DNA from: Frankia casuarinae
Lineage (GTDB): Bacteria; Actinomycetota; Actinomycetes; Frankiales; Frankiaceae
NCBI RefSeq assembly: GCF_000013345.1
Contig: NC_007777.1
Coordinates: forward strand, 5,208,001-5,272,000
Direction of reading: 5' to 3'
Length of the DNA: 64,000 bases
Part shown: positions 24,309 to 38,571 of the stretch, in pieces
Position numbering within the stretch: position 1 is the first letter of the stretch
Layout of the letters: every line of letters begins with the position of its first letter
Notes under the pieces: generated by a model
What the model was told of the DNA's origin: nothing
Seen by the model: the letters and a program-made list of their open reading frames with translations, nothing else
The model's database searches: none
Made by a program: the position numbers and the translations under genes

Positions 24309-26813
<2,505 letters not shown>

Positions 26814-26850: not shown

Positions 26851-26878
26851 CAGTCCGGTGACCCGGCGAGGGCCGGAC

Positions 26879-26918
26879 GCGATGGCCGGAGTAGCCCCGC
26901 GGCTGCTCCGGCCATCGC
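26879..26918 (+). terminator. 13-bp-stem terminator after clpC
   Basis: GCGATGGCCGGAG (26879-26891) pairs perfectly with CTCCGGCCATCGC (26906-26918); the loop contains a further AGCC/GGCT pairing. Likely the main clpC terminator. From here to 27175 I see no gene. Confidence 0.75.
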
Positions 26919-27175
26919 AGTCTCGGCCGCGTAGCCGGGCTGGTCGCTCCAGAGCTGGAACACGTTCGTTCTCTCACACATCGCTCGGTCGCACCGCTCG
27001 ATCGGCGACCGGTAACAGAATATGGGAAAATGTCAGCCACCGGGTAACCACCTTGCCGGCCGGGGCATCCGGCGAGATCGGGTCCGGTTGCCGGCGCAGG
27101 CACGAGCACAGGCACAACTTCATCGCCCCGAGGACGATTCGGACTGCTGGTTCGGCGAACGGGAGAGCTCCGCTG

Positions 27176-28642
27176 GTGACTGGTAGTCCCGACGTCGCGC
27201 TCGGCGTTCACCTGACCTTCGGCTCCGATCCCGCCACGTCCATGGTCGTCTCGTGGCTGACCCGAACGGCCGTCCCTCGGCCCCAGGTACGGTTCGGTCC
27301 GGCGGCTGGCGGATCTACCGGCTCGGTGACCGCGCTCACCCGTTCCTACACGGACGCCCTGACAAACGAGGTGGTCTTCGCCCACCATGCGCACCTGTCC
27401 GGGCTCCTGCCGGCTGCCGACTACCGCTATGACGTGGGTCATGACGGGCGCTGGGGCTTGGCCCACGGGTCGTTCCGCACGGCTCCGCGGCATCGGGCCG
27501 CCTTCAGCTTCACCTGCTTCGGCGACCAGGGCACCGACGAGCCGCACGATCCGTACGGCTCGGCTGCGTCACGCCACGTGATAACCGGAGTGGAACGCCT
27601 CGCGCCACTGTTCAACCTCGCGAACGGTGACCTGTCGTACGCCAACCAGCGCACGGATCCGGTTCGCGCCTGGTTCGACTGGTTCGCGATGATCAGCGCC
27701 TCCGCCCGGTTCCGGCCGTGGATGCCCTGCAACGGCAACCATGAGACCGAGCGGGGCAACGGAGCTCTGGGGCTCGCCGCCTACCAGACCTACTTCGCCC
27801 TTCCCCAGCACGACGAGGAGGCCTACCTCGCCGGGCTCTGGTACGCGTTCACCGTCGGCGGCGTGCGGTTCGTCATGCTCAGCGCCGCCGACGTCTGCTA
27901 TCAGGACAGCGGGCGGGTCTACCTCCATGGGTACAGCGCCGGCCGGCAGACCTCCTGGTTGAGACAGACCCTCAAACAGGCCCGCGCCGATCCCGGTATC
28001 GACTGGATCGTCGTCGGCATGCACCACGCCGCGGTGTCGACCGCGGTGGAGCACAACGGCGCCGACCTCGGTATCCGGGAAGAATGGCTGCCGTTGTTCG
28101 ACACCTACGAGGTGGATCTGGTGCTCTGCGGCCACGAGCACCACTACGAGCGCACTCATCCGCTGCGCGGGGTCGTGCCGGACAGCGCGACCCGGACTCC
28201 CCGCCCGGTCCCCGGCGCGACGACGCCCGCCCGGAAGACCGCTGACGGAGCGGGCGCCGCGGCCGGTGACGGGGCCGGTGACCTGCTCGACACCTCGGCG
28301 GGCACCGTCCACCTGCTCGTGGGCACCGGAGGATCCTCGTCGCCGTCCGCGCACGCACTGTTCGATCCACCCGCCTGCTGGGTCATCGTCGGCGTGCACG
28401 AACAGGATCCCGGCCGGTGGCATCGCCAATCGGTCCGGGCGAGAGAGGACGCGCCCTGGCTCGCCTTCCGGGCACCGGAGCATCCATACGCCTTCGCGGC
28501 TTTCGAGGTGGATCCAGGTGAACCGGGCGGCTCGACGAGCATCCGGGTGACCGTGTACGACTCCAGTGCACCGACGCCGGTCCCGTTCGACCGGTTCACC
28601 CTCGTCCGGCCACGCGCCGACGCGGCCGTGCCCACCACCTGA
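27176..28642 (+). CDS. purple acid phosphatase-like metallophosphoesterase
   Basis: 488 residues. An N-terminal fibronectin-like domain (about 1-100: LGVHLTFGSDPATSMVVSWL) precedes the metallophosphatase domain. Its dinuclear metal motifs are all visible: CFGDQG, NGDLSYAN (with the purple-enzyme Tyr ligand), CNGNHETE, VGMHHAA and CGHEHHYERTHP. A low-complexity insert rich in Pro/Ala follows the last motif. I chose the GTG at 27176 (GGGAGAG ten bases upstream); the frame continues upstream but is not protein-like. No signal peptide is seen with this start, unlike many secreted relatives, so location is uncertain. Substrates may include phosphate monoesters. Confidence 0.88.
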   Translation: MTGSPDVALGVHLTFGSDPATSMVVSWLTRTAVPRPQVRFGPAAGGSTGSVTALTRSYTDALTNEVVFAHHAHLSGLLPAADYRYDVGHDGRWGLAHGSFRTAPRHRAAFSFTCFGDQGTDEPHDPYGSAASRHVITGVERLAPLFNLANGDLSYANQRTDPVRAWFDWFAMISASARFRPWMPCNGNHETERGNGALGLAAYQTYFALPQHDEEAYLAGLWYAFTVGGVRFVMLSAADVCYQDSGRVYLHGYSAGRQTSWLRQTLKQARADPGIDWIVVGMHHAAVSTAVEHNGADLGIREEWLPLFDTYEVDLVLCGHEHHYERTHPLRGVVPDSATRTPRPVPGATTPARKTADGAGAAAGDGAGDLLDTSAGTVHLLVGTGGSSSPSAHALFDPPACWVIVGVHEQDPGRWHRQSVRAREDAPWLAFRAPEHPYAFAAFEVDPGEPGGSTSIRVTVYDSSAPTPVPFDRFTLVRPRADAAVPTT

Positions 28643-29547
28643 CCGGCCACCCGACCGAGAAGCCGTCGGACGGTGCGAAGCGGGCCGGTTCTGATCGCCC
28701 TTCCGGCGGGAGCTCAGGAATCGTGCCACGACCATGACAACCTCGATCTCGACCGAAGACCGTTCACCGCTCGCATCGTGTGACGGTATTCAACGTCAGA
28801 TCCGCCCCCGGGATAGCGTCACTCGCTGTGAGATCCGTCGGATTATTGGCGCCGGAACCACCGCCGCTGCACCGATCAGCTCGATGGATCCCGCCAATTC
28901 CGCGAACAAACCGCGCCCGCGCGGTGGCGGGCACATCCGGGACGACGAACGAGCCGAATAACATCATGTCAACATCATGGATACAACGGCGACCCACCAT
29001 GCGACGAAAGGACGACCGCGGAAGTTCACCGGCGCACGCGTATACCGGCGGCGCGGCAGCGGGCACTACAGAACTTCGTCGGGGGTACGACCCTGGGCCC
29101 GGTTGCCGATCCTTCCTCGGGCGGGAGCGACGGCACACCCCACGGAAGGATCGCAACCGACGGGCCGGCAGCGATCGCAAGGCCGATTTTTCAGGACTCC
29201 TCTGGACATCCACCAGGCGCCAGGAATATTTTTCCGCCAGCACGCCACAATTCACCGGGATAGCACGATCAATGCCCGGCTGAGGGACCGCCGTCTGGGG
29301 GGCGACCATTGGCTGAGAAGCAGCGAGCGGCCAGGGGGCTCCTGCCCTCAGGCCCACCCGCTATGACCAGGATTTTCGGACGGGACCAGCATTACGCGGC
29401 CCGGTATTACGGTCCCCGGAAGAAAGTATCACCGGCGGGTGCGAGCGGATTTGAAGACGCCCGGGAAGGCGTCGCCGCCGGATCCGTCGTCCTCGGCGCT
29501 TGTCGCGGCTGGCACGTTCAGCGACGCCGCCGGGTCCGGCGGAACGG
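28643..29547. other. 905-base intergenic region before GAP1-related gene
   Basis: No frame has convincing coding features. Base composition is less GC-rich in places, for example around 28960-28990 and 29180-29240. A TCATGTCAACATCATG near-dyad occurs at about 28964. It may hold promoters for the large downstream gene or decayed coding sequence. Confidence 0.35.
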
Positions 29548-32500
29548 GTGTCTACCGTGATCGATCACCTGGGGACGTCGATGGCGCGGTCCGGCCGGGC
29601 GGCGGAGGCAACGCGGCTCGACCAGATGATCTATGCCTGGCCGCGCCGAAGCAGGACGGGTGGCGAGGGTCACCTCCCGGCGGCGAGCTCCCTGGGCTCC
29701 ACGGTGACCAGGTCCTGGAGCGGGCTTCTCGCCGGCGAGGTCGAGCTCGACGAGAGCCGGGTCCCCCACCCACCGTCGGCGCTCGCCTACCTCATCCGAT
29801 CTCCGGATCATCCCGAGGCGCCGGATCATCTCACGGCGAGGGATCCGCACCGCATCCCGGAGGCGGCGCTCGTGCACCGGATCCGGATCCCGGAACGCGG
29901 CGGCGACAGCCGGGCTCGGCTGCGTGCCCACATCCTGATCGGCCGGGCGGACTATCTGACCGAACGGGTGGGGCTCGCGTTGTACGCGGCGGGTGGGGTC
30001 GTGGTGGGGAACTCCCGCACCATCCCGCGGCTGGCTCCCCTGCACCTGCGCGACCTCACCGCACGCCGGCGGACGGGCGAGCGGACCCTGCGCCAGTCGG
30101 CGCGCGCGGGGGTGCGGCGCGATCGGCTCGTCACGCTCATCGCGACGGTATTGGCATGGTCGCGGGCCGAGCGTCCCTTCGTGGTGGCCCACACCGGTTC
30201 GGATGAGGCGCTCATGCTGATGTGGGCCCTGGTGGAGATCCTCGAAGGCGTTCTGCCCTACCGGCTGACCTTCTCCACGCATGCGACCACCGTCCCTTCA
30301 GGCGCCACCCCCTCGGGCGCGCGGCACACCGACGAGCCAGGCCCGCGGTTCCTGTTTGTCCCGTTCGAACCAGAGTGTGCCGGCAACGGGGAGCCTGCCG
30401 CGATCCACGTGGATCCGCGGGTCGGGCCGGACGCTCCACCGATCATGACCGCCGCCGCCCGGCTGCTCGTGGACCTCCACGGCCGCGGTGGGATGCGGGG
30501 AATCGGCGACCTGCTGGCCCTGGTCGGTGACGAGATGTTCGACCCGAGCCGGCCGGAAGCCTGGTGCCGGCGGGTGATGGAGAACGGGGTCGAGAGGACC
30601 ACCGCGCCGCCGCCCGGCGGCGACCTGGCCACCCTCGCGGATACCGCGGGTGCTCCGCGTACGGGCGTCCCGGGTACCGCGAGTGGTTCGGGTACGTCGG
30701 GTCCCCCGGATCCGGCACCCCTCTCGACCACGACCGATGCCGTCGGCCTGGGACACTCGACGGCCCCGGCCGCGCCGGGCGATCCGGCACCGGCAGCGAC
30801 GACAGGCGCCGGAGCGCTCGCCGTCCGCGAACACCTCCGCGAACGGTACGAACGCCTGCGGGCTTCGAACTGGTCGAGCTCCGCCGAACAGGGCACGGCC
30901 GCGGACCCCGTGCGCCGTCTTTTCACCGCCCTCATCGAACCGGTAGGTCTGCCGGCGGACCTGGCGAGCGTGGAGCGGCTGCGCGGTCAGTTGCGCCGGG
31001 TCGCGGGGCTGCTGGCCGGCCCCGTCGCCGGCCCGGGCGGCGGGCTCGTGCCAGCGGCCCGGGCAGCGGGCCCCGGGCCCCGGGAACGGTTGCGCGAGGA
31101 GATCGTCGGCGTCATTCTGGGCCGGCTGCGGGAGGAGGAGCCGGCCGGCCGGATGATCGACAAAATCTCCAACGCGGTCGCCAACGCGGTCTCCGAGGAG
31201 CAGCGCCAGGTCGAAGGAACAATCTCCGCCCTCGCGGACGAACTCGCCGCGTTGCGGGTTCCTTCGCCCGCACAGGTCCACGACGAGCCACCGCGCCGGG
31301 ACGAGCCACCGCGCCGGGACGAGCCACTGCGCCAGGCAGTCCCGCTGCTCGCGGTCGCCCTGGAGTCGATCTTCTCGGGATACCGGATGACCTCCGCGCG
31401 CGACAACGCGATCCGGCTGGCCACGGAGACCGTCGAGGCGCTGCGCGCCGCCCGACCGGACCACCTGTCGGCGTCGCCTACCGGTGCTTCCCGACCCGCC
31501 CGACTCCCCGTCACCGTGCGCCGCGTCCCCCGACCTGCCACGCCGCCGCCCGCCACCCCGGAATCGGCCACCGCGCAGCCAACCGATCCGGGCCCAGGGG
31601 AACGGCGGCACCTGGAACGGCTGGAACGGGACGCGGGGAACGCCGTCATCCGACACGTCGCGGAGGCGTATCGGCAGGAGTGGTCGTACTGGGACGATCG
31701 TCTGCACCCGATCGACCGGCTGCTCGCCGCGTTGGGCGTCCCGCTGGGTATCTCCCTCAGCGACGCGGCGTACGACCCTCTCGTCGATCCGCTCGAGTCA
31801 CCCACCGAACTCCGCGAGCTCGCCGCGCTACGTGACCTGCTGCACTGCACCCTGCCGCAGCGCGGCGAGCCCGCCCGGTCTCCTCTCGGAACGGTCTCTC
31901 AACGCCCACCCGGCCACCGTACCGATGTCCTGGCCCGCGCCGCGAGCGACGTCACTCAGGCCATCACTCGACGGCTGGCCCCGGACGCCTACCAGAGCGA
32001 CCACGACCGCGCCGCCTACATCGACGCGGTGCACCGCGCGGTGACGACGATGCAGCGCGAAGTCGTGGAGATGTTGACCCGGCTGGTCGCGGGGCTCGCC
32101 GCGCTCGCGATCCCGGCGGCCGCGGTAGACCCCGCCGTCTGGGCCGGGCGCCGCATCGATCTGATCCATCAGACGCTGCGGGCCCTCTTCGACCTGTTCG
32201 GCCTGCCCGAGGGTTTCGAATTCGCCAGAGCCCTGGCAGACGAGGTGGTGACAGGCGCCGCACCGACGGGTGGCGGGTCGCGGTGGCCCCCGGAGTCGGC
32301 CGCGGCGAAAGTCGTGCGTCTGCTGCGCGAAACCCATGCCCGGGGAGCTGATGCGTTCCGGCTGCTCGTTCTCTACGCCCCGGGATGGCATACCGCCGAG
32401 GACATCCGCGATGACATCGCCTACGCGGGGGCCTCCCCGGTCGGGCCACCCGGCCGGCCCACGTCGCGGGCACATGAGGCGGAGGTACTCGGAGCCGGTG

Positions 32501-33243
32501 CGCGCCCGTATTTCGAGCGGTTGGTCGCGGTCGAGGCCGCGTCGGGACGAGGCGACGGGCCGCTGATGCAGACCGTGCGGCGCATCGCCGGCCTCTACCT
32601 GCCCGGCGCGTCCCACGAACCCGGTCCGCCAGGAGCACCAGGAGCACTCGAGAACGATCTACGTGTCCTGGGTGCGGAGCTCACCGCCCGCATTCCGCCG
32701 ACCTGGCCGGATGGTCCCGATCCGGCGATCGCCTTCCTCCGAGCCTGCCAGCTTGGCCAGCCGAACGCGGCCCGCATCTTCGGGCTGTTGGTCCGACACG
32801 TTCCGAACTGGGACGACGCCTGGGATCTGCACGAGGTTATCCGCCGGGACGGTGCCCCGGGCCAGGAAACCGCCCATCCGGAGGAGGGGCCGTTGACGGG
32901 TCCGGAGTTGGCCAGAGCGGCGGAGAGGTACTTCCGCCGAACAGTGCGGGGATCGGAGGCAGATCACCCCTTCCCCGCCGACCTGGAACGCGTCGTGCGC
33001 CGGCTGGTGGCGCTCTACCTCCCCGACGACCCGCGGCTGCGGGCCGCGAGCGAGCTGCCCGGCTTCGTCGAGAGCCAGGTGATCGCCGCGATCGGCCGAC
33101 CCGCACCGCTCAGGCGCCGCCGCCTGCTCCCGTGGCGCGCCACGACCGCCATGACCACCAGAGTCGCCGTGACCGCCGTGACCGCCGTGACCGCCGTGAC
33201 GTTGTGCCTGACCCTGATGATCTTCATCACCGTGACGCGTTGA
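29548..33243 (+). CDS. large GTPase-associated protein 1 (GAP1)-related protein with C-terminal membrane anchor
   Basis: 1,231 residues. The N-terminus ([21 protein letters not shown], then LPAASSLG) resembles the GAP1-N domain of proteins annotated as GTPase-associated protein 1-related in Streptomyces; WALVEILEGVLPYRLTFSTH and RFLFVPFEPE fit the following part of that domain. The middle (about 335-440 and 570-690) is disordered, including an 18-base repeat giving DEPPRRDEPPRRDEP. The C-terminal half is helical with repeated modules (ALVRHVPNW-like and RRLVALYLPDDPR versus RRIAGLYLPG). It ends with a basic stretch (RRRRLLPWR) and one membrane helix (about 1203-1228), partly made of AVT repeats. 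Related proteins occur in predicted conflict or signalling loci with a GTPase; none is seen here. A PP2C gene follows on the same strand. GTG at 29557 is an alternative start. Confidence 0.6.
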   Translation: MSTVIDHLGTSMARSGRAAEATRLDQMIYAWPRRSRTGGEGHLPAASSLGSTVTRSWSGLLAGEVELDESRVPHPPSALAYLIRSPDHPEAPDHLTARDPHRIPEAALVHRIRIPERGGDSRARLRAHILIGRADYLTERVGLALYAAGGVVVGNSRTIPRLAPLHLRDLTARRRTGERTLRQSARAGVRRDRLVTLIATVLAWSRAERPFVVAHTGSDEALMLMWALVEILEGVLPYRLTFSTHATTVPSGATPSGARHTDEPGPRFLFVPFEPECAGNGEPAAIHVDPRVGPDAPPIMTAAARLLVDLHGRGGMRGIGDLLALVGDEMFDPSRPEAWCRRVMENGVERTTAPPPGGDLATLADTAGAPRTGVPGTASGSGTSGPPDPAPLSTTTDAVGLGHSTAPAAPGDPAPAATTGAGALAVREHLRERYERLRASNWSSSAEQGTAADPVRRLFTALIEPVGLPADLASVERLRGQLRRVAGLLAGPVAGPGGGLVPAARAAGPGPRERLREEIVGVILGRLREEEPAGRMIDKISNAVANAVSEEQRQVEGTISALADELAALRVPSPAQVHDEPPRRDEPPRRDEPLRQAVPLLAVALESIFSGYRMTSARDNAIRLATETVEALRAARPDHLSASPTGASRPARLPVTVRRVPRPATPPPATPESATAQPTDPGPGERRHLERLERDAGNAVIRHVAEAYRQEWSYWDDRLHPIDRLLAALGVPLGISLSDAAYDPLVDPLESPTELRELAALRDLLHCTLPQRGEPARSPLGTVSQRPPGHRTDVLARAASDVTQAITRRLAPDAYQSDHDRAAYIDAVHRAVTTMQREVVEMLTRLVAGLAALAIPAAAVDPAVWAGRRIDLIHQTLRALFDLFGLPEGFEFARALADEVVTGAAPTGGGSRWPPESAAAKVVRLLRETHARGADAFRLLVLYAPGWHTAEDIRDDIAYAGASPVGPPGRPTSRAHEAEVLGAGARPYFERLVAVEAASGRGDGPLMQTVRRIAGLYLPGASHEPGPPGAPGALENDLRVLGAELTARIPPTWPDGPDPAIAFLRACQLGQPNAARIFGLLVRHVPNWDDAWDLHEVIRRDGAPGQETAHPEEGPLTGPELARAAERYFRRTVRGSEADHPFPADLERVVRRLVALYLPDDPRLRAASELPGFVESQVIAAIGRPAPLRRRRLLPWRATTAMTTRVAVTAVTAVTAVTLCLTLMIFITVTR

Positions 33244-33513
33244 TGCGGCGGCGAACAATCACCGTCTCGCGCCCCCCGATACGGGCCGTCACCGTTCATC
33301 GGAGGCATCCTTCGTGGCGCCCGCCTCTCGGCGGGGCCGCCCGGGCGTCGGCCCTACTCGGCCGCGCCCAAGTCTGGAACAATGCTCAGCACTTGTGTCA
33401 GTGTCGCGACACATACCCGGTCTCTTCTGAGTTGATGCCTTTAGGTATGAAGGAAGACGGCTGGCGACACGTCCTACAGCGTGATCGTAATTGCTACGGC
33501 GAGGACGGAGGCC

Positions 33514-34872
33514 ATGGGTAGCCCGCTGGTACCGATCATGCTCATTGTGATGCTGCTGGTGGGTGGGCTGGTCTTCGTCATCCTCAACAACCGGCCCGTC
33601 CGGCCCGGGGAGAACCAGCGACGCTCTCGTGGCCTCGACCATCAGCGCCACCGATACGGTACGGTGCCGATCCGTGACAGCTCTGACGCCACCCCGCCCG
33701 ACGGGATCGTGCCCGGCTTCGCCGAGCCGGCGCCGGTCTCCTCGGCAACCGGTGCGACGGGCAACACGGCGGACAGGTCAGCGGACAGCGCGAGCGGCGT
33801 CCCGGACGCAGGCGCGGCATGGGGAGGGGATGTGACCTCGCAGGTTTCCGTCGGCGGCGGTGAAGGCGACCGCGATCCCGACTCCACCGGCTGGACGCCA
33901 CCGCCCGCCGGTCAGCCGCACCTCGGGCCCGGTGCCTTCGGTGACGAACGGGCGGATGCCACCCGCTACTACGACCCGGCGACCGGCGACTATCCCCTCC
34001 CGCCACCCGGGGAACACGCGCCGGCTCCGCGCGGCGCCGAGTCAACCCGAACGGTTGAGGACACGCCGTGGGAGAGCTCCCCCACGGCGACGACCATCCC
34101 CGTGGCTCCGCCCGCTCCCCCGAGGGGGCAGACGGGCGATCTCATGGCGATCGAGCCGGAGCAGACGACGGCCGCCGCGCTGCGACTCGCCGCCGCGGGG
34201 CGCACCCGCCGGGGCAAACGCGGCGGTCCCAACGAGGACGCGTTCGTCGTCGTCGACGGGCTGCTGGCGGTGTCGGACGGGGTCGGTGGCGAGGCTGCCG
34301 GCCAGATCGCGTCCACGCTGACGGTCACCACGGTGGCGGGTTTCCGCCCGCAGTACGCCGAGGATCCGCTCGAGGGCCTGCGCAAGGCCGTGGAACGGGC
34401 GAACTGGGTGGTCCGGACCCGGGCTCGAGAGGAGCCGGCCTGGCTCGGCATGGCCTGCACGCTGGACGTCGTCATCCTCGGGCGTCAGCAGAGCACCGGC
34501 GAGTACCTCACCGTCGCACACGTGGGCGACAGCTCGGTGTGGTTGCAGCCCGGCAAGGGACGGCCGCGGGCACTGACCACGCCGCACGCGATCCGTAACG
34601 GTCCGTTGCTCAACGCCGTCGGGCTCGCTGACGAGATCGAGGCGGACATCTTCAGCGAGCCGGTCCGCGCCGGTGACCGGGTCGTTCTCGCCAGCGACGG
34701 CATCACCAAGGTGATGAGCCCGGAACAGCTCGACGGCCTGCTGAGCGCGCTGGGGCCCGAGCCGCCCGAGCGGGCCGCGGACGCGCTCGTCGAAGCGGCC
34801 CTGCTGGCCGGTGCCCGGGACGACACCACCATCGTCGTCGCGGATCTGGTGTCCGAACCCGCCGCCCGGTGA
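33514..34872 (+). CDS. membrane-anchored PP2C-family serine/threonine phosphatase
   Basis: 452 residues. One membrane helix at residues 5-25 (PIMLIVMLLVGGLVFVIL), then a disordered Pro/Gly/Asp-rich linker to about 215, then a PP2C domain. Metal-binding motifs are RGKRGGPNEDAF, LAVSDGVGGEAAG, VAHVGDSSVWL, VLASDGITKVM and GARDDTTIVV. The usual GDSR is GDSS and the DHS motif after it is replaced by TTPHAIRNG, so the active-site edge is altered, but all metal Asp residues remain. GGAGG lies just before the ATG at 33514. The catalytic domain should face the cytoplasm. Location 270 bases after the GAP1-related gene suggests a functional link. Confidence 0.85.
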   Translation: MGSPLVPIMLIVMLLVGGLVFVILNNRPVRPGENQRRSRGLDHQRHRYGTVPIRDSSDATPPDGIVPGFAEPAPVSSATGATGNTADRSADSASGVPDAGAAWGGDVTSQVSVGGGEGDRDPDSTGWTPPPAGQPHLGPGAFGDERADATRYYDPATGDYPLPPPGEHAPAPRGAESTRTVEDTPWESSPTATTIPVAPPAPPRGQTGDLMAIEPEQTTAAALRLAAAGRTRRGKRGGPNEDAFVVVDGLLAVSDGVGGEAAGQIASTLTVTTVAGFRPQYAEDPLEGLRKAVERANWVVRTRAREEPAWLGMACTLDVVILGRQQSTGEYLTVAHVGDSSVWLQPGKGRPRALTTPHAIRNGPLLNAVGLADEIEADIFSEPVRAGDRVVLASDGITKVMSPEQLDGLLSALGPEPPERAADALVEAALLAGARDDTTIVVADLVSEPAAR

Positions 34873-34876
34873 GTTC

Positions 34877-34920
34877 GTCCGGACACCCGGACACCCGGTC
34901 GTCCGGCCCGGTGTCCGGAC
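34877..34920. terminator. bidirectional terminator between convergent genes
   Basis: GTCCGGACACC (34877-34887) pairs perfectly with GGTGTCCGGAC (34910-34920). It lies between the PP2C gene and the convergent membrane-protein gene and can serve both. Confidence 0.6.
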
Positions 34921-34966
34921 GTCCTAGATAGACGGGCTGAGACCCGCCGACAGCCGCCCCGAGAAG

Positions 34967-36616
34967 TCAGGAGACGCGCTGACCGACCGGGCAGTCCAGG
35001 GCGCTGGCGCGGGTCAGGCCGTCGACGGACAGCCGGGCGGACAGGCGCACCGGTCCGGACGACTCGGTGAGAATGCCCGTCCAGCCCCCGGCCGCCCGGA
35101 AGACGCACGCCGTGCCCCCCGACAGCTGCCAGTAGGGGGTGTAGTGCACGAGCACCGTGGCGACCCCGGGCGCGTGGAAGTCGACCGCGACCGAACTCAC
35201 CCCCAGTTCGGTGAGCGAGGCCGGTCCCTGCACCAGGCCCGGGGAGTCGGTGACGAGCCACACCTTCCAGTGCGCGTTCTGCCAGGCGAGATCGAGATAA
35301 GGCAGACCGGCTCGCAGCAGCCTGGCCTCGGCGACCGCGGAGGGATCCAGCTCGACGTCGGGGAGGGCGACGTAGCGGATGCCGCGGGCGAGCAGCCACT
35401 CGTGGTAGGTCTCGGCGTTCAGTGTCCCGTCGTAGAACAGCGCGTTGTACTTGCTGTCGAGCTGGCGCAGCCAGCCGCGGGCCATGGGTACGGACGGGGC
35501 GACGAAGCGCGCCTCCCAGTGGGCCCGGGTGAAGGGGATCTCCACCCGCCCGGCCGACACCGGTGCGCCGCGGTCGAGGTAGTCGAGGAGCTCGGTGTAA
35601 TAGGCCTTCGACCCGGACGGATCGCCGTGGACAAGCAGCGCCCCGTGCACCGGCCCGATCTGCCAGCCGATCAGCGGGATCGCCACGACCGCGAGGACGC
35701 GGCGGCGTTCGGCGAGCAACAACGCCGCGGTAGGGCCGGCGAGCAGCGTCGCCGGTCGGGTGATGTTTCCGCCGATCTGGGTGGGCACGAAAAAGAAGAC
35801 CACTGCCGCGGCCGCCCAGAGCAACAGGCCGTGCCGGATGGGCCGGATGAGCCGGGCGTGCCCGGGCACGACGAGCAGGCCGACCGCGATGAGGGTCAGC
35901 AGCGACAGGAAGGTGAGCGCGGGAAAGGGCTGGTACCCGTCCTCGGGAAACGCGAGCGCGACGATGATGCCGGATCCGGCGCCGGCGAACGGGAGCGCCC
36001 GGCGCCATCCGATCGTCGGCAGCAACGCGAGGCCGACGAGCAGCACGAAGCCGCCGGCCAACGGAGACGCCAGCGACGACAGGACCGCGCCGATCCAGGT
36101 CAGCTTCGTGTGCCGTTCCCGCGCGCCGACCAGCGCCAGAGCACCGAAGGTCATCCCGAGCGCGAACGGCATGCGGCCCACGACGAGGTTCGCCACCGTC
36201 GAGACCGCGAACCAGACGAGGACCAGATCATGCCCGGTCCGCCGGCCAGGACCGCGGAGCAACCGGGTCACGATCATCGTCGAGGCGACGCAGGAGATCG
36301 CGCCGAGCGGCTGTACCCCGACAAGCGCACCGAGCGGGGGGAACAGCACACTGTAGCCGGGGATGGTGTGACCGCCGTACCACTGATCATCCCAGAGCAC
36401 CACTCCGCCGTGCCGGAACAGCCAGACCCGGTACTCCTGGGCGGGGGTGTCCGGACCGGTGATGCCAAGACCGACGCACAGCAGGCAGAGCGCGGCGGTC
36501 AGAATCCAGGGCCAGCGGCGAACCGCCACGACGACAGCGAGAACACCCCGCACGAGCGGTCCGCGGTGCCGCGGCGGCTCGAGGGCGATGGAAGGGGTCT
36601 GGGGCAGTGTGGCCAC
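34967..36616 (-). CDS. polytopic membrane protein, possible GT-C glycosyltransferase
   Basis: 549 residues with about ten membrane segments in the first 370 residues (for example ILTAALCLLCVGLGITG, AVVFFFVPTQIGGNI), then a 180-residue soluble C-terminal domain (AYYTELLDYLDRG, WEARFVAPSVPMARGWLRQL, GIRYVALPDVELDPSA). That topology and the loop between the first helices, containing DDQWYGGHTIPGYS, resemble GT-C glycosyltransferases and actinobacterial 6-pyruvoyl-type envelope proteins; I cannot assign a family. The GTG at 36616 has GGAG six bases upstream; GTG at 36727 or ATG at 36781 would add a disordered N-terminus. Divergent from the MptB-like gene, so an envelope glycan role is inferred. 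Confidence 0.6.
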   Translation of the reverse strand: MATLPQTPSIALEPPRHRGPLVRGVLAVVVAVRRWPWILTAALCLLCVGLGITGPDTPAQEYRVWLFRHGGVVLWDDQWYGGHTIPGYSVLFPPLGALVGVQPLGAISCVASTMIVTRLLRGPGRRTGHDLVLVWFAVSTVANLVVGRMPFALGMTFGALALVGARERHTKLTWIGAVLSSLASPLAGGFVLLVGLALLPTIGWRRALPFAGAGSGIIVALAFPEDGYQPFPALTFLSLLTLIAVGLLVVPGHARLIRPIRHGLLLWAAAAVVFFFVPTQIGGNITRPATLLAGPTAALLLAERRRVLAVVAIPLIGWQIGPVHGALLVHGDPSGSKAYYTELLDYLDRGAPVSAGRVEIPFTRAHWEARFVAPSVPMARGWLRQLDSKYNALFYDGTLNAETYHEWLLARGIRYVALPDVELDPSAVAEARLLRAGLPYLDLAWQNAHWKVWLVTDSPGLVQGPASLTELGVSSVAVDFHAPGVATVLVHYTPYWQLSGGTACVFRAAGGWTGILTESSGPVRLSARLSVDGLTRASALDCPVGQRVS

Positions 36617-36882
36617 GCGAGGCTCCGACCCGGGGTGCCCGGGCCCACCCGTCGCCGGGGCGGTCGACGCCGTCCGCCCCCCCGAGATGGCGTCAGGCGG
36701 GGAACCCGGGGTCGCGAGCGTTGTCACCCGCGACCCCCCCACACACCGACGACAGTCCATCCGCCGTCTCCGACCGGTCATCACCCGACAGCTTGCCCCG
36801 CGGGCGGCGTCAGGCCGCGCCCGTCCCGTCCGGACCGGGCAGCGGCAGGCCCCGACCGGCCGGCATCCTGGCCCCGACCAGG

Positions 36883-38571
36883 GTGACCCTGCTGGTCCTC
36901 GCCGGTGGCGGCGCCGCGGTCGTGGCCATGATGAGCGAGGGTCGGCTCGGTTCGCGCGATCCGCACACGACCGACCCTTCCTCCTGGTGGGGCATTCTCC
37001 CATCGGCGGCCTCGTCGGATACCGCAAGGGGCGTCCTGGCCGGCCTGGCGGCCCTGGGCATCATCACTCTGTGTCTGTGCTGGGGCGGACTTGTGCGCGC
37101 GACGATCGCCGGCCGCACCTCCCCGCGGGCCGCCCTCGCGGCGTGGATCGTCTGGAGCCTCCCGTTCGCGGTGGGCCCACCACTGTTCAGCCGGGACATC
37201 TACGCCTACGCCGCTCAGGGTGAGCTGGCGAGGCTCGGCCTGGATCCGGCGACACACGGCGTCTCCGCCCTGCTGACCGCCGAGGGCTCGGGCTCGGCGT
37301 TCGTCCGGGCCGTTGACCCCCGGTGGTGGAACACCCATGCGCCCTATGGCGGTGCCGCGGTCGCCGTGGAGAAGAGCGCCGCGGCCCTCGGCGGCGGGCC
37401 GGCCGGGACGGTCGCGCTGCTCAAGATAGTCGCGATCCTCGCAACGATCGCGATGGTCGTCCTGACGCTACGGCTCGCCGGACCGGAGCCGGGCCGACGG
37501 GCCCTGGTCATGGTGCTCGTCGCGGCCAATCCGGTCGTCGTCGTGCACCTGATCGGCGGAGCCCACCTCGACGCAACGGCCGCGGCGCTGCTCGTGGCGG
37601 CGCTGGTGGTGGACCGCCGACGGCTCGCCTCGGCACCGGCGCCCGGCCCGGAGGGAAGGAGCACGCCGACGGCTCGGCAGGCCGCGCTCGGCGCCGCGGC
37701 GACGGCGCTGGTCAGCGTGGCCGGAAGCGTCAAGGCGACCGCCCTCCTCGGCGTCGCCTGGCTGGTGCTGGCGCATCTGCGGGCCGCCCGGTCGGCGCGG
37801 CGTCCGATCCGCGCCGGCGCCGTGCTGCTCGCGGCCGATGCCGCCGCGGTCGCGCTCGCCGCGGGGCTGAGCATGGTGGCTGGCGGCTTCGGCCCGACCT
37901 GGATCCACGCGTTGTCCACGTCGGGCACCCTGACCACGGGGGCCGCACCGGCCTCGATTCTCGCCGCGGCGGTCGACGGGGTCGACGGCATGCTTGGTCC
38001 GGTCGGCCGCCATCCGTCCGGCGCCGAAACGCAGCGGGCGACTCGGGCCCTGTGCCTGGCCGGCGCGGCGCTGGTGGTGGCCTGGCTCGCCCTGCGCGCC
38101 TGGCGGGACCGGGACGGGTACACCGGCCGTCGGCACGACCTGATCGTGCTCGGCTACGGCGGGCTGGCGGTGGCGCTCGGCAGCCCGGTGCTCTACCCCT
38201 GGTACCTCGCGCTGTGCCTGCCGGCACTCGCGGTCGTCGTGGCCCTCGCCCGGTCAACCCCGCCGACGCCCCACCCTGGAACGGCCCGTCCCAGGACGCC
38301 GGGGATGCAACCACGCCGCATGAGGCGTCTCGGGGCGGCCGTCGAGCGGATCGTCGGGGGGGTCGGGGGGTGGACCATCGCCCTGGTGGTCGTCACGTCG
38401 GCCTGGCTGTGCCTGACGACCCTCGCGCCGCTCGCCGCGACCTGGCGGCTGCTCGGGCGCGTCGAGACGTCCCTGGCCGTCATCGGCTGCGCCGGCCTTG
38501 CGGCCGCGGGAACGGTCATCACGCTGGTCGCGATCCGGCGGCGGCACGCCACGCCCACCCGCAGACGGTGA
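36883..38571 (+). CDS. MptB-like polyprenol-phosphomannose-dependent alpha-1,6-mannosyltransferase
   Basis: 562 residues from this start, a dozen or so membrane helices. GT-C family hallmarks: FSRDIYAYAAQGELARLGLD with the periplasmic Asp, WWNTHAPYGGAAVAVEKSAA, LVAANPVVVVHLIGGAHLDA, GSVKATALLGVAWL, and SPVLYPWYLALCLPAL. These match MptA/MptB enzymes that build the alpha-1,6-mannan core of lipomannan and lipoarabinomannan outside the membrane. The start is uncertain: GTG at 36883 lacks a Shine-Dalgarno sequence, and the frame is open to 36607 with TTG codons at 36718 and 36789. Its 3' end overlaps the convergent GT87 gene by 53 bases. Confidence 0.8.
   Translation: MTLLVLAGGGAAVVAMMSEGRLGSRDPHTTDPSSWWGILPSAASSDTARGVLAGLAALGIITLCLCWGGLVRATIAGRTSPRAALAAWIVWSLPFAVGPPLFSRDIYAYAAQGELARLGLDPATHGVSALLTAEGSGSAFVRAVDPRWWNTHAPYGGAAVAVEKSAAALGGGPAGTVALLKIVAILATIAMVVLTLRLAGPEPGRRALVMVLVAANPVVVVHLIGGAHLDATAAALLVAALVVDRRRLASAPAPGPEGRSTPTARQAALGAAATALVSVAGSVKATALLGVAWLVLAHLRAARSARRPIRAGAVLLAADAAAVALAAGLSMVAGGFGPTWIHALSTSGTLTTGAAPASILAAAVDGVDGMLGPVGRHPSGAETQRATRALCLAGAALVVAWLALRAWRDRDGYTGRRHDLIVLGYGGLAVALGSPVLYPWYLALCLPALAVVVALARSTPPTPHPGTARPRTPGMQPRRMRRLGAAVERIVGGVGGWTIALVVVTSAWLCLTTLAPLAATWRLLGRVETSLAVIGCAGLAAAGTVITLVAIRRRHATPTRRR

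Follow-up and report, generated by a model that had tools for sequence, protein, structure and literature searches.

The window analysed here, a stretch of 64,000 nucleotides of the soil bacterium Frankia casuarinae (contig NC_007777.1, positions 5,208,001 to 5,272,000) from a closed genome of 5,433,628 bp, contains two consecutive genes, one for a giant protein of 1,231 residues and the other for a membrane phosphatase of the PP2C type. The original prediction, made from the sequence alone, took them for a possible module in which a GAP1-related protein is paired with a phosphatase, without the usual GTPase. Inspection of the open reading frames (ORFs) bore out both genes as described (Table 1). 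Here we trace the relatives of the giant protein and of its neighbours in the genus of the window's strain (g1), in its GTDB family (f1) and in other genera (g2, g3, g6 and g23).

The giant ORF begins with a GTG codon, the position of which agrees with the starts of its orthologues, ~20 residues ahead of the first conserved motif. No Pfam family matched the protein at E ≤ 1. Behind a conserved N region, the protein contains two duplications, namely modules X and Y followed by modules R1 and R2. The motifs IAGLYLPG and LVALYLPDDPR, in which repeated helical modules had already been recognised, are the closing motifs of R1 and R2, two copies of one module. The single C-terminal membrane helix also agreed with the hydropathy profile, in which one strong segment was found at the C-terminus and a weaker one (residues 839-857, 1.71) within a repeat. 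The gene is a single open full-length frame in 10 species, and nonsynonymous divergence (dN) was lower than synonymous divergence (dS) in the N/M region in all four species pairs, indicating that the gene is maintained.

Table 1. Features of the giant-PP2C locus (positions in the window)
Feature	Position	Strand	Basis
Gap at the place of gene U in other species	28643..29547	+	U at 11/11 fetched giant loci, 0 in the window
Giant GAP1-like protein, 1,231 residues	29548..33243	+	ORF; orthologues in 13/13 g1 genomes
Conserved N region, GAP1-N/M-like, ~334 residues	29608..30609	+	A2 profile; hhalign 99.3-99.5% to the DO-GTPase-linked family; A5 profile, E 1.7e-20
Module X	30790..31527	+	X-Y duplication, hhalign 95.4%, 182 columns
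Module Y	31600..32277	+	X-Y duplication, as above
Module R1, holds IAGLYLPG	32275..32637	+	R1-R2 duplication, hhalign 97.3%, 102 columns; helical in a low-confidence model
Module R2, holds LVALYLPDDPR	32650..33087	+	R1-R2 duplication, as above
C-terminal membrane segment of the giant	33178..33234	+	Residues 1211-1229, hydropathy 2.34; segment kept in 9/10 full-length giants
Block AGTCTGGAACAATG between giant and PP2C	33371..33384	+	Exact at 12/13 g1 loci; one substitution at the 13th
Membrane PP2C phosphatase	33514..34872 (possible earlier start 33481)	+	Pfam, hydropathy, motif alignment, GGAGG
N-terminal membrane segment of PP2C	33526..33582	+	
Catalytic domain of PP2C	~34201..34869	+	
94-bp junction at the place of the TrkA_N-RyR gene in other species	34873..34966	+	Gene present at 11/11 g1 loci reaching past PP2C

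A search with the first 350 residues of the giant as a single sequence detected it in 12 of 30 genomes, all belonging to g1 (the window's and 11 of the 12 others), and the g1 genome that was missed, G007, does show pieces of the giant. Giant sequence lies directly ahead of the PP2C gene in all 13 g1 genomes, so the adjacency is not limited to one strain. Ten copies are full-length single frames, and in G001 and G007 the gene is divided between contigs. In G008, a single contig (C401, locus L030) carries the C-terminal portion of the gene at one end and the N-terminal portion at the opposite end, which is probably an assembly artefact. At ten g1 loci, identity to the window's proteins was 71-79% for the PP2C and 38-52% for the giant. 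Single-sequence tblastn searches of plasmids, as well as single-sequence pattern scans of genome contigs and viral contigs, yielded no relatives of the giant. Two weak matches were set aside: a giant-profile match in G009 (L059, E 0.0018, 49 positions), taken as chance because the ORFs there are unlike the giant, and a match of the giant to DotU (E 0.33), dismissed as noise. Six-frame translations of the loci were used to repeat the scoring of gene presence and absence.

Relatives of the N region encoded after DO-GTPase genes

According to the consulted sections of eLife 2020;9:e52696 (PMC7159879), GAP1 lies downstream of DO-GTPases and comprises N1 and N2 types. When 246 genomes of the class were searched with a profile built from the N regions of 11 giants, two matches fell outside g1 (G162, E 4.6e-4; G014, E 0.009). 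Both matching proteins are encoded directly after a DO-GTPase2 gene (PF19993, E 8e-6 and 5.5e-6, slightly under the Pfam cut-off), and that of G162 is identical to a protein of Thermobifida fusca NBRC 14071. The best seven to eight candidates per genome were scored in these searches and in those with profile A5 below, and absences are therefore soft. In the pooled loci, which included DO-GTPase loci fetched from the family, the profile made of giants alone gave seven matches at E < 0.1; every one was the gene directly after the GTPase, and five came from loci fetched for their GTPase.

Twelve GTPase-following proteins that carry no GAP1-N2 match (hereafter the linked family) aligned with the giant N region by hhalign at 99.3-99.4% (score 152-159, 265-268 columns), and the same family aligned collinearly with GAP1-N2 plus GAP1-M at 73% (score 46, 211 columns). 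With ten members added, the values became 99.5% and 68.5-73.3%, respectively. Overall, the scores were 152-166 against the giant and 45-46 over 211-214 columns against GAP1-N2 plus GAP1-M. GAP1-M lies in this same collinear alignment, which runs to columns 233-234 of the GAP1 profile. The controls were clean, as (i) reversed alignments scored at most 15.1, (ii) 30 column shuffles scored at most 19.2 for the giant and 16.1 for GAP1, and (iii) 23 unrelated families scored at most 21.0 with the linked family, 21.6 with GAP1 and 29.4 with the giant. The predicted GAP1-N-like start found no support in Pfam, and appears only indirectly, through this intermediate family, the match of which to GAP1-N2 plus GAP1-M is moderate.

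Profile A5, built from the linked family and containing no giant, matched a single place in the window's genome, which is the giant, and 27 of 296 genomes gave a match. Ten A5 relatives were unused in building the profile; a DO-GTPase gene lies at most 1.5 kb upstream of seven of these, GTPase-like sequence lies downstream of another, and the remaining two have neither. With these profiles, no GAP1-like neighbour was found at L165 (GTPase within a 1,017-residue ORF) or L166 (weak GTPase match), and both loci were excluded from the counts.

Members of the linked family lie directly after DO-GTPase genes at L154 (6434-9178), L155 (6702-8486), L164 (3986-6586), L117 (5977-8799), L220 (5891-8251) and other loci. 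None of the members scanned matched a Pfam model, and the family perhaps represents a third GAP1-N type. Nine of 10 complete GTPase-linked proteins carry a membrane segment, which falls within the last 60 residues in eight. The modules of the giant matched neither GAP1-C nor the C-terminal parts of seven linked proteins, and neither the linked-family profile nor the giant profile gave a usable match in searches of PDB sequences. The GAP1-like protein at L060 (7480-11094) extends ~357 residues beyond an internal membrane segment, and this extension is penicillin-binding-protein-like by eye. GAP1-like relatives in genus g6 (L218, 8263-9768; L219, 7406-8929) have no DO-GTPase within the fetched stretch.

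Genes absent from the locus and the PP2C neighbour

A DO-GTPase profile (A4), built from 15 of these DO-GTPase genes, had no match in the window's genome and at least one in each of the 12 other g1 genomes. PF19993 gave solely a 25-position P-loop match in the window's genome, and the absence of a GTPase noted originally thus holds genome-wide. Neither the window nor any of the 11 fetched giant loci (L020-L030) contains a DO-GTPase gene; placement downstream of such a gene was found in relatives outside g1. The locus accordingly lacks the GTPase switch of the DO-GTPase/GAP1 conflict systems, which combine it with GAP1 and variable components.

Another gene, here called U, precedes the giant at all 11 fetched giant loci, and overlaps the giant start by 4 nt at L020, L023, L025 and L027. 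In operons that end in GTPase and GAP1-like genes, the first gene (830-1,105 residues) was matched by the U profile, at E < 1e-3 in eight of the 15 linked loci (L060, 1e-32; L163, 1e-26; L154, 1e-24; L159, 1e-24; L220, 3e-15; L161, 7e-8; L167, 5e-7; L221, 6.5e-4). The profile-profile comparison of U with this gene reached 98.6% over 189 columns. Pfam gave nothing above cut-off for four U proteins. Because U is similar to the gene that opens the U-like/kinase/GTPase/GAP1-like operons, the giant's locus in g1 appears to have kept the outer operon genes and to have lost the middle ones, namely those for the kinase and the GTPase. No protein match to U was found in the window's 905-bp gap, including a six-frame search, and the gap shows weak DNA similarity to the region upstream of U (9e-5 and 0.004). 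Likewise, a TrkA_N-RyR gene (Pfam) follows the PP2C gene at all 11 g1 loci with sequence beyond it and at the six g2 loci, and is missing from the window's junction. The two-gene appearance in the window's strain would stem from the loss of these neighbours, U and TrkA_N-RyR, which other species have kept. The giant gene is preceded by a purple acid phosphatase (PAP) gene (26858-28642) and, further upstream, by a Clp ATPase gene (24309-26813), and downstream of the PP2C lies a minus-strand ORF (34967-37027) with no Pfam match. PADLOC, run on eight proteins, matched the Clp gene alone.

The phosphatase matched PF13672 (E 1.6e-11) and NF033484 (E 1e-29, below that model's own cut-off). It is probably 452 rather than 463 residues long, since GGAGG precedes the ATG at 33514, which the gene caller also picked. 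The predicted N-terminal membrane segment was confirmed by hydropathy (residues 16-34 of the 463-residue form, 3.04). Alignment with 1txo and 2cm1 (named PstP) covers nearly the whole catalytic domain, and the NED, DGxGG, SDG and DD/DN motifs, which we take to have their usual metal-binding roles, are present. The protein is thus similar to Stp1/PstP-type PP2C in its catalytic domain and motifs, and differs from it by the N-terminal membrane segment. A second PP2C gene lies at position 5297256 of the genome and, guessing from its position, may be PstP proper.

Orthologues of the window's PP2C (E < 1e-80) were found in 32 of 35 f1 genomes, 19 of them outside g1. None of these 19 loci (L096-L113 and L060) has a giant ahead of the PP2C gene, with at least 2.3 kb of upstream sequence shown except at L112 (370 bases). 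A six-frame search of the 19 loci detected the GAP1-like linked family solely in L060, within a separate operon. These loci with PP2C and without the giant suggest that the PP2C is older at the locus than the giant, or that the giant was lost several times.

GTPase-type genes adjoin the same PP2C in four of five g3 genomes. In three of them, a DO-GTPase-like gene lies 0.3-0.4 kb after it (L106, 12149-13174; L107, 12819-13892; L112, 2372-3397), with hhalign values to DO-GTPases of 97.7% and 94.9% (Clp control, 8.8%). In the fourth, L060, a linked operon is convergent with the PP2C gene, the stops being ~45 bases apart, and in the fifth, L109, none was found beside it. The gene following the GTPase-like gene in the three g3 genomes was rejected as GAP1-like (hhalign 0.1%). 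This proximity reflects either a functional link or an insertion hot spot. Over stretches of differing length, the 15 linked loci included a single one with a PP2C gene, L060 itself, and the 13 GAP1-N2 loci included three, all of genus g23, which we take to be Streptomyces. Finally, ~270 bp containing AGTCTGGAACAATG separate the giant and PP2C genes. This block, with up to three substitutions allowed, was not found within 900 bases upstream of the PP2C in other genera, and may belong to the PP2C promoter.

Origin of the giant protein and its possible partners

These comparisons argue that the giant quite probably descends from the GAP1-like member of an actinobacterial DO-GTPase operon and now stands without the GTPase. 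The ancestral operon would have had the order U-like gene, kinase, DO-GTPase and GAP1-like gene. In g1, the U and GAP1-like genes would have come to sit between the PAP and PP2C genes with the kinase and GTPase gone, and in the window's strain both U and the TrkA_N-RyR gene behind the PP2C would also have gone. Judged from sequence comparison, the locus is best read as derived from a DO-GTPase/GAP1-type operon that has lost its GTPase, with its two-gene form produced by gene loss. The giant may be a cytoplasm-facing, tail-anchored adaptor. The N/M region probably docks on the GTPase in relatives; in the giant, this region and the duplicated helical modules may now bind other proteins at the membrane. 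The neighbouring PP2C, presumably an older resident, is the best, albeit unproven, candidate partner. We do not claim membership in GAP1 for the giant, because neither GAP1-C nor a GTPase was found; that it works as a GAP1-type adaptor is what we infer. Sequence analysis gives the chain of homology, the gene orders and losses, the membrane segment and the coding constraint; contacts between proteins, the adaptor role and phosphatase control of any kind are inferred.

Several observations weigh against this descent. Direct comparison of the giant with GAP1-N2/M gave 0.1% by hhalign, and 4.3% (score 27.7) with a wider GAP1 set, which is background; GAP1-C likewise gave 0.1%. The 12 proteins that seeded the linked family were identified in part through A3, a profile that included giants, and the independent evidence for them is their position after the GTPase. 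Seven of the 15 linked loci have no U-like match at E < 1e-3 (0.22 at L155), and a protein kinase (E < 1e-3) lies directly ahead of the GTPase in five of the eight loci scanned, with three above the Pfam cut-off. Structure models were too poor for a fold search, with predicted local distance difference test (pLDDT) values of 34 for the N region and 53 for R1-R2.

Among known systems, the GAP1-N2 type (PF20013, PF20014, PF20052) resembles the giant in the collinear N and M regions, indirectly and at moderate strength via the linked family, in the position of the giant's relatives after a GTPase, and in C-terminal membrane segments, which the consulted sections of PMC7159879 report for GAP1-N2 systems. 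The giant nevertheless differs in having no Pfam GAP1 match and no GAP1-C, with four helical repeat modules instead, and in having no GTPase at its locus or detected in its genome. The same sections describe an actinobacterial GAP1-N2 theme (Theme 3) with kinase, PP2C and vWA genes. Our locus shares with it a PP2C beside a GAP1-type gene, but has no kinase, vWA or GTPase, and the window's PP2C belongs to another lineage, which most of the family carries at the same position with no giant. GAP1 with PP2C has thus already been published; the literature searched, including those sections, yielded neither a GTPase-less relative of GAP1 nor an N type of this kind.

It is tentatively possible that the giant and the PP2C are functionally coupled, and that they act as a single module at the membrane, with the giant replacing the GTPase/kinase switch in governing the output of the phosphatase. 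The adjacency in every g1 genome, the predicted membrane binding of both proteins, the GTPase-type genes beside the same PP2C in g3, and the retention of just these two genes in the window's strain are in favour of this possibility. Nevertheless, 19 genomes outside g1 have the PP2C orthologue with no preceding giant, PP2C lies near a single linked locus of 15, and the intergenic gap holds a conserved block. A dedicated GAP1-PP2C module, as first proposed, is unproven, because the PP2C is older, being present in most f1 genomes, and is rarely near linked operons.

We regard as doubtful the alternative that the giant acts in trans with DO-GTPases elsewhere in other species and is an orphan with a secondary role in the window's strain. 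All 12 other g1 genomes do carry DO-GTPase-like genes at other loci, but the giant is still intact in the window's strain, where none was detected. It is unlikely that the N region is unrelated to GAP1. The lack of a Pfam match, the non-significant direct comparison and the moderate link of the linked family to GAP1-N2/M would fit such a view, but the strong match to the GTPase-linked family, the clean controls and the separate evidence from gene U contradict it. Last, the gene losses at the locus might suggest a decaying remnant without function, which is very improbable given the intact frame found across 10 species, a dN lower than dS in all four pairs and the membrane segment kept in nine of 10 giants.

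It is conceivable, though rather doubtful, that a GAP1-type membrane adaptor was freed of its GTPase and rewired to the PP2C as its output. The PP2C would then be a real partner, which would explain why it gained GTPase- or GAP1-type neighbours in separate f1 lineages.

A GAP1-like family thus regularly follows actinobacterial DO-GTPase genes and, in the members scanned, escapes the current Pfam models, and DO-GTPase/GAP1-like systems are therefore probably under-counted. The g1 locus offers a natural experiment, in which the GTPase and kinase are gone and an outer component is still under selection. The window's strain, with no detectable DO-GTPase, would allow one to test whether GAP1-type proteins work without a GTPase, and whether the PP2C takes over. 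The locus may serve as a test case for how GTPase-switch signalling systems are dismantled or reused.

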